From a virus, in IMG/VR virus record IMGVR_UViG_3300022745_000080, positions 1-39,717 of that record: a DNA stretch of 39,717 nucleotides; one strand, 5' to 3'. The notes under the pieces were generated by a model. The model searched no databases and was not told the origin of the DNA. It saw nothing but the letters and a program-made list of their open reading frames with translations. Below are positions 5,419 to 30,070 of the stretch, piece by piece (position 1 is the stretch's first letter; each line of letters opens with the position of its first letter). Made by a program: the position numbers and the translations under genes.

Positions 5419-7448
5419 CTTGGCCCCATGCAAATCACGTCAAAATCAATATCAGCCGAGGCCCCCGAGCTTGGAACCCGGATATCAGTGGTTATTGACG
5501 TTGCTGTTATAGAGACAACACTACAAATTCTTTGCCCCGATTCGGGGTTACAAGTACACGTTGGCGCTTGTGAAAAGCGGCCTGAAGGGATTGTCAAAAC
5601 TACCGCACCCACTCCCGTACGGTTTATTGTCCACCCCCCATCAGATTGTGAAACAATCGAAGCCGTGCCGTTGTTTAAAACTCTTATGCGCTCAATCCTT
5701 TCAGCCCCATTTGAATTTGAACTTACTGAGCCCACAAGGATTGGAGTGTTGGCCGCACCGTAAAACTCTTCAATAATGATGACACCCGATCCCCCGGCAC
5801 CCGCCACTTGAGTTGAAGCCGCCGCTGTGCCACCCGCACCAATTGAATAATTGTAAGAGCTTGCAATCTGTCCAACAGGGATGATGATTTCAAGATACCC
5901 ACCGGCCCCACCGCCTGAGCCTGTAAAAGCGCCGCCCGTACCCGAGCCACCGCCCCCTGAGCCTGAATTTGCGGCACCCGATCCCGAAGCTGCGTTATTT
6001 GATCCCCCATCACCGCCCCCGGCACCGCCAAATGGTGATGATCCCCCATCACCGCCTTTGCCATTGGCGTTTGATGATGGGCCATTGGTTGTTGCACCCC
6101 TGACCAAAGTTGCAACCAATCCTGTTGTATTTGTGCAAACAGCACCGTTTGTTGACGGCGCATCATCCCCATTGACGGTCCCCCCAGGCCCCCCAGCACA
6201 TGAAAGCTGTGATCCAAAAGTTGTGGTCCCACCGGCCCCACCATTTTGCCCGGCGGCACTCCCACCGCCACCGCCGCCACCGCCAATCATTCTGATCTTT
6301 AAGTATTTCACACCGGTTGGTGGGAAATAAACCCCTGTGCCCGATGTGAGTCTTGTTGTGGTTGGTGAAGAGGGCGCGTTGATGTTTACAATTGTGCCAT
6401 TCCCAGCAAATCCAACGCAAGGCACTCGAAAATTTAAACTAAATGTGAGGGATGTTGCCGAAAATTGGTCAACATTTAATAAAGAAATATTATAACCCGT
6501 GGTGTTTGCTTGATTATAGTTGTAATCCTTAAATGCAATTTGTGAACTTGAATACACTGATGGGGTGATTGTACCAATCAAAGAGCCTTGATAAGTTTCC
6601 CTCATGATGCCAATGCCACCCGAGTCAGTTTGACCAATTGATGCTGTTGTATTGGCCTTGGCTCTCACGGTATCAATCACACAAATTGAACTTGGGATAT
6701 TGAAGAGCATGAGCCCTGTGCCGTTCGTGCCCGCCGCTGTTTGCCTGTAGTCCCATCTTACCAACAAGTCAGGCCCTTCTCTTCGATATTGAGCAACATT
6801 TGTGGCCACAGTCCCATAAACCGGATTTGTTGTTGACCCTGTGATTAGTGCGCCAGCGGCAACACTTGGGAAGTCTTGCCAGTCAGTTGAAATTGCGCCA
6901 AGACCGAGATTTGTGGCTTTCCCCGCATAAACCTTTGCCACGTTGACCGTGTTTGAGCCGGTACCAGTTGATGCCAAGCAAACGGTTGCTTGTGAACTTA
7001 GGTTACCACAAGGAAAATTCATTGAGACTGGTTGCGAATATGACGGGTTGATCAGTTGCAAGTCAGTTGTGACTTGCACGGTGCCAAGGGTCACATAAGT
7101 TTTGAAGTTGGCCGCATTGCCTTTATAAACAAATTTTGCTTCACAGTTTTGCCCTTTGAGGTCCTCGCCAAAGAAATTGGCGGTCCAGCAAAAGGTCTGT
7201 GCTGAAGTTGAAGCGGTGACCGCGCATTGAGTATTGGTGTCAGCGTTGAGCGGTGTTGTGGCGTTTTGTGCAACAGTCCCGCCACTCACTGTGATGAAGC
7301 TTGTATTTTTCCAACAATCGGGATTTTTGATGTAGTTTTTTTCAGCACTGAGTCCCGGCAAATATGTGCCGGGTGAAACCAAGCTTGAGTTTTGCGCTTG
7401 AGCAAAACATCCTGCGAAAAATAATACTAAGAAAATAAATGCTTTCAT
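5415..7448 (-). CDS. secreted, cysteine-rich fibre-like protein with polyglycine domain
   Basis: 677 residues. Residues 1-19 are a signal peptide (Lys, hydrophobic core, cleavage near AQA/Q); a weaker lipobox reading at FAGC is possible. Residues 30-190 resemble the carbohydrate-binding-like 'NYIKNP ... KNT' modules seen in environmental phage adhesins and contain many cysteines. Residues 190-380 are beta-rich. Residues 385-560 are a glycine-rich sandwich starting KIRMIGGGGGGGG, as in fibre-tip adhesins, and the end is another small beta domain with a CTC/C pair. A virion fibre normally needs no export signal, so this protein may be displayed on the host or assembled in an unusual way. AAGGG precedes the ATG; the gene follows a tail fibre gene. 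Confidence 0.75.
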   Translation of the reverse strand: MKAFIFLVLFFAGCFAQAQNSSLVSPGTYLPGLSAEKNYIKNPDCWKNTSFITVSGGTVAQNATTPLNADTNTQCAVTASTSAQTFCWTANFFGEDLKGQNCEAKFVYKGNAANFKTYVTLGTVQVTTDLQLINPSYSQPVSMNFPCGNLSSQATVCLASTGTGSNTVNVAKVYAGKATNLGLGAISTDWQDFPSVAAGALITGSTTNPVYGTVATNVAQYRREGPDLLVRWDYRQTAAGTNGTGLMLFNIPSSICVIDTVRAKANTTASIGQTDSGGIGIMRETYQGSLIGTITPSVYSSSQIAFKDYNYNQANTTGYNISLLNVDQFSATSLTFSLNFRVPCVGFAGNGTIVNINAPSSPTTTRLTSGTGVYFPPTGVKYLKIRMIGGGGGGGGSAAGQNGGAGGTTTFGSQLSCAGGPGGTVNGDDAPSTNGAVCTNTTGLVATLVRGATTNGPSSNANGKGGDGGSSPFGGAGGGDGGSNNAASGSGAANSGSGGGGSGTGGAFTGSGGGAGGYLEIIIPVGQIASSYNYSIGAGGTAAASTQVAGAGGSGVIIIEEFYGAANTPILVGSVSSNSNGAERIERIRVLNNGTASIVSQSDGGWTINRTGVGAVVLTIPSGRFSQAPTCTCNPESGQRICSVVSITATSITTDIRVPSSGASADIDFDVICMGPR

Positions 7449-7449
7449 T

Positions 7450-9162
7450 TTAGACCCTTCCCGTTTCAGCCCATGCGGTGCCGTTCCAAACCAATTTTAA
7501 AATTGAATTTGAATATGAGTACCAATCACCCTTTAAATAAGGGTTATTTAATTGCATCAAAATAATGTAGTCAGTGTTATGGGTGCCATAGATCCAAAGT
7601 TCACGGCCAACAGTCAGCGCCGGGGCAATCATTGGATTTGCAATCACATTGACCTCACCGCCGTTTGATTTCACAAACCAAACTTGTCTTGCATCAGTGC
7701 CCTCAACATAAGCAATGCCGGTGCCTGCCACAATTGATTGTGGGGATGCAATCGAGCCCGTGACAACAAGGGCCCCGCCGCCCGCGCCTGAGCCCGAGCC
7801 GCCCACGACTTGCCACAAACTTGCCGCCGCATCATAAATGAAAGTAAGGGCTGAGCCGTCAGTCACCGTGAGATTTGCACCCGTGCCGGTAAGAATACGA
7901 TTTGCAGCGGTCCCGCCTGTATTGTTTTTGATAACAACAGAACCCCCGGTTGCAAACTTAACAATCAAAAAAGACCCGTTTTGTGGGGCCGCAATATTGT
8001 TGATTGAAGCAAGTGAGGCATTGGTGACTTTTAAAAATGACCTTGTTGGTGCAAGACTTTGATCAGCCCCGGTTGTGGTTGAGTCAACTTGTTGGACAAG
8101 CCTAATCATGGCTTGAAAAAGTTGATCAGCCATCCAAGTTTTCACCCCAGCAAATGCCTGAGCTGCAATTGAAATGAGCCCGGGATGAGTGTCATCAGCC
8201 GGTTGAAGGGTTATCACCTGGCCTGAAATGGTTGCACCCTTAGCATCAGGTGTCGAACCGAAAGCGCCTAGACTTGCGTCACCTGTATTGGTGCCTGACA
8301 AATTGCTTGCGCCGATTGTGCCGGTGAAAGTCTTATTGCCCGCAAAGGACTGAGTGCCGGTATTTACAACCCCTCTATGGGCTGTTGAGGCATCAATGAC
8401 ATCGGCTGTGACATCAAGGGTGCCCACTTCCATGGGGTTGCTCGGGAAGGTTGGTTTTGTCGAGACGTTGAAAACTTCCCAGAAAATAAATTTGATGTTT
8501 GTTGAACTGAGGTTGTAAGCCGTTTCAGTGCCAGCAATATTGGTGAAAAAAGATAAAGTCCAAACACCGGTCGCATAAGTCATGCGACCATAAACCCTTT
8601 GACCTGTGGTTGCATCCTCAATATAAGTCAGAGTTGAAGCATCAACCACAAAGACTCTATTTTCAGGCGGTGCGGTGACAACACCCACGTTGGTTGTTGT
8701 ACCCCCTGAAACCTTGCCAACCATTTGTGCTGACACGTCAACGCTTGTGCCACTTGCGCCGGTTTTTGTGGCCCCTTGATAAACCGCTTCAAATACATTG
8801 AAGTTTGAAAGTGCGAGGGCTGAAATCTGTTTGCCAGCACCCGCCGCACCCGAGTGATCATGACCCGAGGTCACGTTGAATTTTGCATCTAGTTTGCCAA
8901 GAGCAACTTTTTTACTGTCACCGTTGGCAATGACTTCATTTGATGAGTAAGTTTTTCTTGTGGTGTCACCAGTGCCGGTCATACCCTCGGCATCAAATAT
9001 TTCATTGATTGCTTGCTGTGAATTTGCAACAGCGGCCCCGCTGTTTGGGTCACTTACGTTGTTAAGACCAACCACACCCACCGTTGTGGTGTTGGCCGTC
9101 CTTGACATAAAGGCATTGTTGAAAGTCGTTTGATTTGCAATTTGTCCATTTGTGACGCTCAT
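7450..9162 (-). CDS. tail fibre protein
   Basis: 570 residues. Motifs common in phage fibres are present: GHDHSGAAGAGKQI near residue 100, NLSGTNTGD near 300, and GLISIAAQAFAGVKTW shortly after. The N-terminus is short and helical (likely attachment), the middle repetitive and beta-rich, and the C-terminus is an aromatic-rich receptor-binding-like domain (about residues 460-570). It lies between the distal tail gene and the signal-peptide fibre in the same unit, overlapping the former by 4 bases. Binding target unknown. Confidence 0.8.
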   Translation of the reverse strand: MSVTNGQIANQTTFNNAFMSRTANTTTVGVVGLNNVSDPNSGAAVANSQQAINEIFDAEGMTGTGDTTRKTYSSNEVIANGDSKKVALGKLDAKFNVTSGHDHSGAAGAGKQISALALSNFNVFEAVYQGATKTGASGTSVDVSAQMVGKVSGGTTTNVGVVTAPPENRVFVVDASTLTYIEDATTGQRVYGRMTYATGVWTLSFFTNIAGTETAYNLSSTNIKFIFWEVFNVSTKPTFPSNPMEVGTLDVTADVIDASTAHRGVVNTGTQSFAGNKTFTGTIGASNLSGTNTGDASLGAFGSTPDAKGATISGQVITLQPADDTHPGLISIAAQAFAGVKTWMADQLFQAMIRLVQQVDSTTTGADQSLAPTRSFLKVTNASLASINNIAAPQNGSFLIVKFATGGSVVIKNNTGGTAANRILTGTGANLTVTDGSALTFIYDAAASLWQVVGGSGSGAGGGALVVTGSIASPQSIVAGTGIAYVEGTDARQVWFVKSNGGEVNVIANPMIAPALTVGRELWIYGTHNTDYIILMQLNNPYLKGDWYSYSNSILKLVWNGTAWAETGRV

Positions 9163-13486: not shown

Positions 13487-13924
13487 TTAAACCCCTCTTG
13501 GTATTGTTAAAACTAATTGAACCTCAAAAACCATTCTCAACTCAACGTCATTGTCATCACTGGGCGAGTAAGGTGCCGGGGTGAAGCTCTTAAGCATGAC
13601 GTTTTTAATACTCGGTTGAGTCAACCTGTTTGTGGCTTTCAAGACCTCTTCAAGAACAGCCTGACCTTTTGCAATTGTCCAGTCAACAGCTTTTAAGGGG
13701 TCTTTGGCCCCCTTAGCAAACAGCTTTATGGTAACCTCACCGCTTGCGTCCAAACAGTCCTGATTTTGCTTTATTTGATTGAAACCGCTGATTTCAATGT
13801 GGAAAGCGCCTTGAAGTATAGTTGAGGGGATGTTGTCGGTATTGAGCCCAGTTGTCCACTCAGTAAGGCCCCCAACAGTCCTGATGCGGTCCCGAAAATA
13901 TGGTCTTAAGTGGGTGAAACTCAA
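13487..13924 (-). CDS. tail terminator / tail completion protein
   Basis: 145 residues if it starts at TTG 13924, which overlaps the upstream stop as TTGA and has GAGG 5 bases ahead; a TTG at 13948 would add 8 residues. The pattern (LRPYFRDRIRTVGGL near the N-terminus, then a beta-rich core IEISGFNQIKQNQDCLDA and a last helix and strand) matches gpU-like terminators that cap the tail tube and join it to the head. It sits directly before the tail tube gene, as expected. Confidence 0.68.
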   Translation of the reverse strand: MSFTHLRPYFRDRIRTVGGLTEWTTGLNTDNIPSTILQGAFHIEISGFNQIKQNQDCLDASGEVTIKLFAKGAKDPLKAVDWTIAKGQAVLEEVLKATNRLTQPSIKNVMLKSFTPAPYSPSDDNDVELRMVFEVQLVLTIPRGV

Positions 13925-28347: not shown

Positions 28348-28626
28348 TCAACCGCGAGGGGATTTTTTACCGGCTTCAAATTCTAGTCTTTTCTCTTGGG
28401 CATAGTGCCCTAAGATTAGGTTAAGGATTGGCTCAGCTTTAAACCCCAGGATGATTGATAACTGGCCTAAGGTCTTGAAGGGCACTTTGCTTTTACCTGA
28501 CTCAAGCAAATGGACAAACATTGGTGAGCTGAGGCCAAGCCGAGTGGCAACCTCTGTTTGGGTGAGGCCCGCTTTCAGTCTCGCCGCTTTTAATTTCTCA
28601 CCAATGACTTGATTTGTGGTTTTCAT
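28348..28626 (-). CDS. XRE-family HTH transcriptional regulator
   Basis: 92 residues. Residues 8-62 are a Cro/C1-type helix-turn-helix: IGEKLKAARLKAGLTQTEVA, then RLGLSSPMFVHLLESGKS as recognition region. The rest is a short basic tail. Such proteins bind operators as dimers; a likely target is the palindromic promoter at 29015-29054 upstream of its own operon (inference). AAGGGGG lies before the ATG, and the start overlaps the previous stop by 4 bases. A 6-base hairpin (28324-28340) follows the stop. Confidence 0.82.
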   Translation of the reverse strand: MKTTNQVIGEKLKAARLKAGLTQTEVATRLGLSSPMFVHLLESGKSKVPFKTLGQLSIILGFKAEPILNLILGHYAQEKRLEFEAGKKSPRG

Positions 28627-29016: not shown

Positions 29017-29046
29017 TTTATAAAGTTCTTAGCTTAACAGTCTCAA
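29017..29046 (-). promoter_or_regulatory. sigma70-like promoter with palindromic operators
   Basis: Minus-strand -35 TTGAGA (29041-29046) and -10 TATAAA (29017-29022) are 18 bases apart. The -10 sits in a perfect 12-base palindrome ACTTTATAAAGT (29015-29026), and the -35 overlaps the palindrome GTCTCAAAGTGAGAC (29040-29054). Transcription would begin near 29010, about 33 bases before the zinc-ribbon start. Two CTTAAG copies lie further down. Palindromes on both elements suggest repressor control. Confidence 0.5.
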
Positions 29047-29468
29047 AGTGAGACAACTTGGCAAAACTCTTTGAGGTCAAAAGTTTTCTTGGCCCCTGGA
29101 AAGGCTGGCCTTGCTTGAAGGTCTTTGATTGAAAAGGGTAAGGCCCTCATCCTGAAGCTTTCCCACTCAAAGATAAAGAGCTTGTTGACCCCTTTCATCC
29201 TGAGGTTAAGAAATACAAAAGCCATGCCCCCTGATTTCTTGATGAGGGTGAGGTGCTTGATTTGGCTTGGTCTCATGGCCCTCATGCCAAATGATTGCCA
29301 TTTCTTGATGAGCTTCACTTCAATTGCCACAATGTTGCCATTGATGCTTGCAAGGATGTCACAGGGCTTTTCCGGTGCAAAGCGGGATGGGGCATCTGGT
29401 ATCTTATAAGCCCAGCCATGGGCCTTTAAAGAGTTCACAATCTCTGTGGTGATGAGCTTTTCGGTCAT
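29043..29468 (-). CDS. RecU/VRR-NUC-like PD-(D/E)XK nuclease
   Basis: 141 residues. PD-(D/E)XK core: Asp37 in CDILASINGN, Glu50 and Lys52 in VAIEVKL, and a Gln69 helix (RPSQIKHLTLI) followed by GGMAFVFLNLR, as in RecU Holliday-junction resolvases and related small phage nucleases. Such enzymes cut branched DNA formed in replication or recombination before packaging. It lies next to the putative origin with the primase-helicase. Distinguishing RecU from VRR-NUC would need a profile search. Confidence 0.75.
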   Translation of the reverse strand: MTEKLITTEIVNSLKAHGWAYKIPDAPSRFAPEKPCDILASINGNIVAIEVKLIKKWQSFGMRAMRPSQIKHLTLIKKSGGMAFVFLNLRMKGVNKLFIFEWESFRMRALPFSIKDLQARPAFPGAKKTFDLKEFCQVVSL

Positions 29469-29471
29469 GCC

Positions 29472-29651
29472 TTACATGATCCAGTTTTGGCCGTCTTTGC
29501 AATACAAAATATCGTCCTCGAGTTTTATGGCACCCCCGTGGTCACGGCAAAGGTTCTTCTCATCAATTGCCACAAGACCACATGAGGCGATTAGAAGTTG
29601 AGTGATAAGCAAAATTGTGAGCCAAAAGTAAAATCTTAAATTTTCTGTCAT
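29472..29651 (-). CDS. small lipoprotein beside the origin
   Basis: 59 residues beginning MTENLRFYFWLTILLITQLL. A hydrophobic signal of about 14 residues ends in the lipobox IASC, so the mature peptide would be about 36 residues anchored at Cys24. It keeps two further cysteines in CRDHGG and YCKDGQNW. AAAGGA lies before the ATG. Small phage lipoproteins may block superinfection (as Llp of T5 does) or act in lysis; this one is far from the lysis-like genes, which favours the former (inference). Confidence 0.65.
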   Translation of the reverse strand: MTENLRFYFWLTILLITQLLIASCGLVAIDEKNLCRDHGGAIKLEDDILYCKDGQNWIM

Positions 29652-29713
29652 AGTTTCCTTTTATAAAAGTTGGTTGGGGTAAAGTCACGCCACAAAAGCC
29701 ACAAATTTATGGG

Positions 29714-29743
29714 TGTCCCAACCCGTCCCAGCCTGTCCCGACC
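29714..29743. repeat. tandem iterons, left block (three copies)
   Basis: Three directly adjacent 10-base units: TGTCCCAACC, CGTCCCAGCC and TGTCCCGACC. They are the reverse complement of the GGTTGGGACA units on the right. Further copies of this orientation are at 29801-29819 (TGTCCCGACC plus a 9-base GTCCCGACC) and 29970-29979. Confidence 0.85.
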
Positions 29744-29754
29744 TCAAATGGCAA

Positions 29755-29979
29755 GGTTGGGACAGAAATTGGAGTTAAATTTCATGGAGTTAAGTCATTT
29801 TGTCCCGACCGTCCCGACCTTTTTGACCCAATTAACCCCCTATATATCTATGTATAAACAATATATTATTTATTTTATAAAACCATAGATATACCCCTAC
29901 ATTATTTAGAAAAAGGTTGGGTAGGTTGGGACAAAGTGAGTTAAGCACCTGATTTTGCACTCCAATTTCTGTCCCAACC
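29755..29979. repeat. 21-base perfect inverted repeat flanking the AT-rich core
   Basis: The left arm is 29755-29775 (GGTTGGGACA then GAAATTGGAGT) and the right arm is its exact reverse complement at 29959-29979. Each arm contains one iteron plus an 11-base extension. The arms enclose the AT-rich segment, giving the region overall two-fold symmetry. Confidence 0.85.
29841..29893. repeat. AT-rich core with 10-base inverted repeat
   Basis: TATATCTATG (29843-29852) and CATAGATATA (29884-29893) are perfect inverted copies around a 31-base, almost wholly A/T spacer. This is a candidate DNA unwinding element with cruciform potential. Confidence 0.75.
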
Positions 29980-30045
29980 TCACCGAAAAAGGTTGGGACA
30001 GGTTGGGACAGAAACCCATAAGCACTTGATTTTGCACTCCAATTT
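29943..30045. repeat. 26-base direct repeat, two copies
   Basis: Copies at 29943-29968 and 30020-30045 differ at one base (C/T at the seventh position). Both begin AAGCAC and end ACTCCAATTT, and lie next to iteron copies. The second half matches the extension in the 21-base inverted repeat. Confidence 0.85.
29991..30010. repeat. tandem iterons, right block (two copies)
   Basis: Two perfect adjacent GGTTGGGACA units. Single copies in the same orientation lie at 29755-29764, 29924-29933 (preceded by the variant GGTTGGGTA at 29915) and 30058-30067, the last 3 bases behind the primase-helicase stop. Confidence 0.85.
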
Positions 30046-30070
30046 AAAAAGTTCAGAGGTTGGGACACCC

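Follow-up and report, generated by a model that had tools for sequence, protein, structure and literature searches.

Mirrored iterons 3' of vapE: a probable SaPI1-type replication origin in a phage-like virus

Approximately 360 bp of intergenic DNA separates vapE, which encodes a putative primase-helicase, from a small predicted lipoprotein-like open reading frame (ORF) in the IMG/VR virus record IMGVR_UViG_3300022745_000080, the whole of which (39,717 bases) was analysed and is termed the window. This region is dense with short repeats in both orientations, which raises the question of whether it is an origin of replication, as a reading of the sequence alone had suggested, and if so which protein recognises it. 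The interpretation favoured here, with a probability of roughly 0.86, is that it is a phage replication origin working like that of SaPI1, with the C-terminal domain of VapE reading the iterons, two helicases facing one another and replication starting bidirectionally.

Gene surroundings and structure of the array

Besides VapE, the window encodes a number of replication-type proteins recognised through Pfam, namely an SNF2-type helicase, a DUF2800 protein, an Enc34-type SSB and a family-A polymerase. Structural functions are represented by genes for a major head protein, a scaffold, a morphogenesis protein and a large terminase; as it encodes its own capsid and terminase set, the window is classified as a phage-like virus and not a PICI. 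Neither tRNA genes nor an exact terminal repeat of at least 20 bases were found in it. The cumulative GC-skew minimum, at ~32-33 kb, is ~2.5 kb from the array and coincides with a switch in gene direction at 32.4-32.7 kb, where transcription is divergent, which makes the skew unsuitable as a guide to the origin here. The genes surrounding the array, and the parts into which the proposed origin can be divided, are as follows.

28348-28626: small HTH protein, near the array (Pfam)
29043-29468: RecU/VRR-type nuclease, beyond the lipoprotein-like ORF as seen from the array
29472-29651, minus strand: unlisted ORF of 59 residues, read from the sequence, with a lipoprotein-like start (LLIASC); lies between the origin and the RecU-like nuclease
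29712-30070, unstranded: proposed replication origin, ~360 bp, intergenic, directly 3' of vapE
29714-29743, minus strand: outer iteron block of three tandem copies, the second degenerate
29755-29764, plus strand: opposing iteron, at a spacing of 21 bp from the outer block
29765-29800, unstranded: 36 bp arm, with candidate arm element TTTCATGGAGTTAA at 29780-29793 (held-out p 0.035)
29801-29819, minus strand: inner tandem iteron pair of the GGTCGGGACA type, facing the core
29820-29914, unstranded: A/T-rich core, 77% A+T, the likely melting region, containing the TATATCTATG/CATAGATATA inverted repeat
29915-29933, plus strand: inner tandem iteron pair (GGTTGGGTA, GGTTGGGACA), mirroring 29801-29819
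29934-29969, unstranded: 36 bp arm, with candidate arm element GTTAAGCACCTGAT at 29940-29953 (held-out p 0.145)
29970-29979, minus strand: opposing iteron, mirroring 29755-29764
29991-30010, plus strand: outer tandem iteron pair
30020-30045, plus strand: extra arm copy beyond the outer pair, a 26 bp direct repeat of 29943-29968 with one mismatch
30058-30067, plus strand: outermost iteron, adjoining the vapE stop codon
30071-32341, minus strand: vapE, encoding a prim-pol domain (PF09250), an AAA+ VapE helicase domain (PF05272) and a C-terminal winged helix; proposed initiator-helicase (Pfam, AlphaFold2 and PDB matches)

When at most one mismatch is permitted, the window contains 14 matches to GGTTGGGACA, compared with an expectation of 3.7, and none of 100 shuffles reached this total. 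Nine of these matches fall inside 29714-30067, the other five being at the level expected by chance. Scanning the array with a weight matrix identified 12 sites, in agreement with the approximately 12 near-copies of GGTTGGGACA, in both orientations, counted in the sequence-only reading. The further repeats it described are likewise present: the tandem blocks at 29714-29743 and 29991-30010, a perfect 21 bp inverted repeat (29755-29775 and 29959-29979), the 26 bp direct repeat with a single mismatch (29943-29968 and 30020-30045) and the inverted TATATCTATG/CATAGATATA pair within the core.

The two-fold symmetry proved stronger than had been claimed. In the orientation of vapE, with the innermost left site set to zero and arrowheads giving direction, the site offsets are >-143 >-86 >-76 <-57 >-9 >0 on one side of the core and <103 <112 >160 <179 <189 <199 on the other, such that ten of the 12 sites mirror one another to the base (pairs 0/103, -9/112, -57/160, -76/179 and -86/189). 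A repeat search detected an overall inverted repeat of 100 bp, at 77%, between 29725-29824 and 29910-30009. The 95 bp core is 77% A+T compared with 66% in the arms, a moderate enrichment only, and the outermost iteron stops 4 bp short of the end of vapE. The virus is represented by one further metagenome record (L007, 99.93% identical), in which the array is unchanged over 490 bp; the array is therefore not an assembly artefact, but L007 is too close to the window to demonstrate conservation. Direct similarity searches of the array DNA against known phages returned nothing meaningful.

Such inverted repeats could alternatively constitute an RNA or terminator element, with 12 bp inverted pairs forming hairpins that end the vapE transcript. 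Perfect inverted pairs are indeed found 9 bp apart, and two terminator-like matches are located at the vapE end of the array. However, terminator-like matches number five against 4.6 expected, which is the level of shuffled sequence, and no Rfam family was found in the array. As a hairpin would need neither exact mirrored spacing over 270 bp nor tandem copies on the same strand, this explanation is highly unlikely.

Recurrence and shared geometry 3' of vapE

Conservation of the repeat in relatives had been put forward as a check on the original proposal. The proposal withstands this check, in that the layout and its position 3' of vapE recur, while the repeat word itself drifts. This was assessed in a sample free of repeat-based selection, consisting of 80 VapE loci fetched by protein similarity, in which copies were counted for the best family of 9-mers within a 560 bp stretch covering the vapE stop and its 3' side. 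At least eight copies were present in 24 of the 80 loci, compared with 0/80 shuffled sequences, 0/80 gene bodies, 0/67 upstream stretches and 0/76 stretches downstream by 1.1 kb. Using several word lengths, Z was at least 7 in 28/80 loci, against 2, 0 and 2 in three real-sequence controls. Fewer than seven copies were found in the searched stretch of 53/80 loci (about half to two thirds being without an array), and thus the link between vapE and the array is common, not universal. Clusters of at least seven copies are present elsewhere in the locus in nine of these 53; some of the nine, namely L056, L057, L101 and L110, are displaced arrays. The displacement from vapE is 1.7-4 kb in L101, L110 and L016; in the last, whose array is at 1605-1905, a patatin-like gene and a transposase intervene. 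Among the closest VapE relatives of the window, the arrays of L043 (seven copies) and L044 (Z 5.7) are weak, and none was found in L042.

Repeat words vary widely by lineage, with examples including TGTACCCAG, GGTCCGGGT, TGTCACCAA, GTTCCAGTC, CTGACTACA, TGTAACATT and TTGTTTCCG. Named phages harbouring such arrays are Marinobacter PS3, Staphylococcus QT1 and phiSa2wa, Corynebacterium Adelaide, Paenibacillus Bloomfield, Rhodobacter RcDora, Fusobacterium phiPaco, S. pneumoniae IPP10, S. thermophilus SW6 and C. difficile phiCDKH02; PS3 and RcDora closely match the layout of the window. Some VapE replicons do not fit, as no clear array was evident in the 480 bp examined from Bacteroides BF503P2, PPpW-3, ep3 and LN34, and those of Javan154 and Javan466 were weak. 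Scans with the repeat pattern matched contigs of unrelated phages and prophages (alphaproteobacterial, Synechococcus and metagenomic), and in those stretches that included vapE the array mostly lay immediately 3' of the gene, in the layout << 11 > 36 << core >> 36 < 11 >> or a near variant.

Several loci were set aside, comprising L005, in which two copies beside a DnaB gene form one isolated repeat pair only, and L019, L024, L025, L029, L030, L036 and L041, with one isolated repeat pair each. Other arrangements were also observed. In L011, inverted half-arrays of one repeat (8544-8635 and 13603-13695) flank a ~5 kb block containing a DUF927 primase-helicase gene, with an integrase gene just beyond one half-array. 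The Desulfovirgula genome L038 carries an array of ten copies (5935-6390), at a wider spacing of 57-58 bp, beside a DUF927/Cch-type helicase gene; here the repeat word known from vapE loci accompanies a different helicase family. Copies in L010 (5012-5054) are on one strand only, beside serine recombinase genes, and are without the mirrored layout.

A gene order consisting of vapE, a gap of ~270-380 bp, a VRR-NUC/nuclease and an SNF2-type helicase recurs in L123, L124, L125, L126, L129 and L144, from phages of Staphylococcus, Corynebacterium, Paenibacillus, Fusobacterium and Brevibacillus. Small ORFs are annotated within the vapE-nuclease gap of L123, L124, L129 and L144, and phiSa2wa and Emery have a tiny annotated ORF in the gap corresponding to the origin.

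The position of the array across phages bears on a role in partition or packaging, since clusters of repeats around a core also occur at centromeres and packaging sites. However, a parS-like function is opposed by the finding of no ParA/ParB family among the 30 window proteins scanned against Pfam, some small ORFs being outside that scan. Similarly, a pac/cos-like site would be at odds with the location of the terminase genes, which at 25-27 kb are distant from the array, and with the tendency of arrays to follow vapE, not terminase. Either function is extremely unlikely.

Arrays from different lineages also share a geometry, which was examined in the 42 lineages whose core could be defined. 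Of these, 37 have divergent site pairs at a distance of 42-50 bp, against a mean of 20.6 and a maximum of 30 in 500 orientation shuffles; there was no excess of convergent spacings of 15-24 bp (26 against 26.4 in the orientation shuffle). The mirror score was 0.56, compared with 0.35 (sd 0.02) when the outer sites were randomised, and the core was richer in A+T than the arms in 29/42. Inner tandem pairs were present in 34/42, a figure that is partly built in, and so not independent evidence, because the rule for picking the core prefers such pairs.

The arms, taken as the spacers of ~33-41 bp between divergent sites, had been described in the sequence-only reading as an iteron combined with a second element. 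Such an element recurs across lineages as a motif resembling TTAAACCCATTGATA on one strand, with a likelihood of 104.7 against at most 44.9 in shuffles (33 lineages) and, in lineages not found by repeat sequence, of 78.0 against at most 43.0, the shuffles preserving base composition, not dinucleotides. When the window arms were treated as held-out data, the p values were 0.035 and 0.145, and the presence of the motif in the window itself is thus no more than suggested. In a set of streptococcal and SaPI arms (L137:6488-6785, L138, L141 and L142) there is a near-palindrome, AAACCC-TTGATATTA-GGGTTT, which could form a hairpin and is a possible priming site.

VapE as the predicted initiator

The PF05272 domain of VapE scores 248 bits in Pfam, against a curated cut-off of 25. 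In the AlphaFold2 model, an AAA+ core predicted with confidence is accompanied by a C-terminal winged helix (residues ~663-752), consisting of helices followed by a two-strand wing, with pLDDT mostly >90. The only PDB sequence match was to 7pds (E 9.5e-47), an entry named 'Similar to D. nodosus vapE' with the title PriRep1 with dsDNA. Structural comparison of the model with 7pds gave a Z of 35.3 over 390 residues at 27% identity (model range 355-756), a match spanning both the AAA+ domain and the winged helix, and Foldseek an E of 4e-27; the SaPI5 primase-helicase, 7ola, was a weaker fold match (Z 13.5). We take 7pds to be the SaPI1 Rep of Qiao et al. 2022. In agreement with this identity, phage 2PHSA1 has a gene that is 98.8% identical to 7pds and whose annotation refers to a homologue in SaPI islands.

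Repeat similarity appears to follow the C-terminal domain of VapE, not the helicase core, in a relationship that is modest but one-sided. Across 48 lineages, iteron similarity was associated with C-terminal domain identity when corrected for the helicase core (partial r 0.29, 0/500 permutations), and the reverse test, of the core corrected for the C-terminal domain, gave -0.08. For 39 lineages mostly free of repeat ascertainment, the corresponding values were 0.23 (0/1000 permutations) and -0.05. This covariation agrees with the behaviour of SCCmec Cch2, the isolated C-terminal domain of which binds its 3' iterons (PMC7581432).

Operators can also take the form of inverted-site arrays, and with a small HTH protein encoded nearby, at 28348-28626, the repeats might bind such a transcriptional regulator and control neighbouring genes, not replication. 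This is very improbable given that the array is at the 3' end of vapE, with promoters numbering three against 3.6 expected and none inside the array, that arrays follow vapE in phages with differing neighbour genes and that the repeat word tracks the VapE C-terminal domain.

Conservation of the arm element while the iterons change indicates that a second reader may exist, and the origin might therefore be read by another initiator, or by a protein of the host (DnaA, for example), VapE serving solely as a helicase. By contrast, the covariation points to the VapE C-terminal domain, no second initiator was found among the 30 window proteins scanned with Pfam, and SaPI/SCC helicases self-load and bind their own iterons (PMC7581432), making a separate initiator very improbable. 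A classical iteron plasmid origin (RepE/RepA/TrfA type), which has DnaA boxes and a non-helicase Rep protein as initiator, is not indicated either, no plasmid Rep family having been found among the window proteins scanned with Pfam.

A predicted iteron-type origin served by the neighbouring prim-pol/VapE protein, much as first suggested, is well supported: VapE is homologous to SaPI1 Rep, the layout is found both at SaPI1 rep and at the Sfi21 origin, arrays recur 3' of vapE in many phages, and the repeat word covaries with the VapE C-terminal domain. In the mechanism that we infer, entailing binding, melting, two facing hexamers and a bidirectional start, the VapE winged helix would bind the GGTTGGGACA iterons, and the five mirror-placed sites per side would each position one self-loading helicase assembly, the two facing across the A/T-rich core. 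The core would melt, with each helicase taking one strand and departing; the N-terminal prim-pol of VapE would prime, and extension in both directions would fall to the family-A polymerase, SSB and helicases that the phage encodes.

A broader and more tentative proposal, at slightly less than even odds, is that such arrays form a very widespread class of phage origins with a two-part grammar. The VapE C-terminal domain would read swappable, lineage-specific iterons at fixed mirror positions. A different conserved partner, for instance the primase domain or helicase ring, would read the arm element (~TTAAACCCATTGATA), which is still recognisable where the iterons have changed, and the two together would position two facing helicases and their priming sites.

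Although vapE is very common in phages, their origins are rarely annotated, and mirrored repeats around an A/T core just 3' of vapE provide a rule for locating them by sequence. The layout is common to dozens of unrelated phages with differing repeat words, and its occurrence in phages of several host phyla that have their own capsid and terminase genes alters the view of the origins of satellite replicons. As iteron word and winged helix both vary naturally, the recognition code would also be testable.

Comparison with known origins

In PICIs, the A/T-rich region 3' of rep is invariably bordered by two iteron sets, an organisation said to be found in no other known bacterial replicon (PMC6092414). 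Autonomous replication is reported for the pri-rep-ori segments of SaPI1 and SaPIbov1 and for rep and ori of EcCICFT073 (PMC6092414). Since the published SaPI/PICI organisation thus already places two iteron sets around an A/T-rich stretch immediately 3' of the gene for a helicase-initiator (PMC6092414, PMC7581432), the suggestion of a new initiator-origin type in the sequence-only reading was too strong. The putative origin of the window is of this SaPI1/PICI type, lying directly 3' of the gene for a helicase-initiator homologous to SaPI Rep helicases (7pds E 9.5e-47, Z 35.3), in a virus that encodes a capsid and terminase of its own. Novelty appears to lie in how broad the origin class is and in the conserved arm element.

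SaPI1 resembles the window in having a Rep of VapE's helicase family, including the C-terminal domain, and an origin directly 3' of rep. In the SaPI1-type rep and origin stretch of 2PHSA1, the only part of that phage compared, convergent inner TGGGACA pairs surround an A/T core as in the window, with opposing sites or arms ~43-55 bp out and, as read by eye, the arm element on both sides. However, SaPI1, a satellite of phages, has its primase as a separate protein, whereas the virus record analysed here carries genes for capsid, terminase, polymerase and SSB, joins prim-pol and helicase in one protein, and has a 10 bp unit and stricter symmetry. The alpha protein of satellite phage P4 is, like VapE, a primase-helicase-initiator fusion associated with iterons in both orientations, but P4 differs in needing a distant second site, crr, besides ori.

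SaPI5 Rep and SCCmec Cch2 likewise resemble the model proposed for the window, in which the helicase loads itself and recognises iterons on the 3' side of the gene encoding it (PMC7581432), but are unlike VapE in belonging to the D5/Primase_Cterm helicase family, the Cch2 site consisting of three short iterons only. In the Streptococcus thermophilus phage Sfi21 (NC_000872), a non-coding stretch of 302 bp directly 3' of a putative primase is annotated as an 'origin of replication' and 'phage inhibitory sequence'. It shares inner pairs, an A/T core and the arm element with the window, and differs in its unit (GTTACT), its fewer and shorter repeats, its separate primase gene and its Gram-positive host. 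As this record annotates an origin at the same position, at least one phage case is already known, and its annotation as inhibitory to phage suggests that such sites may act as decoys too.
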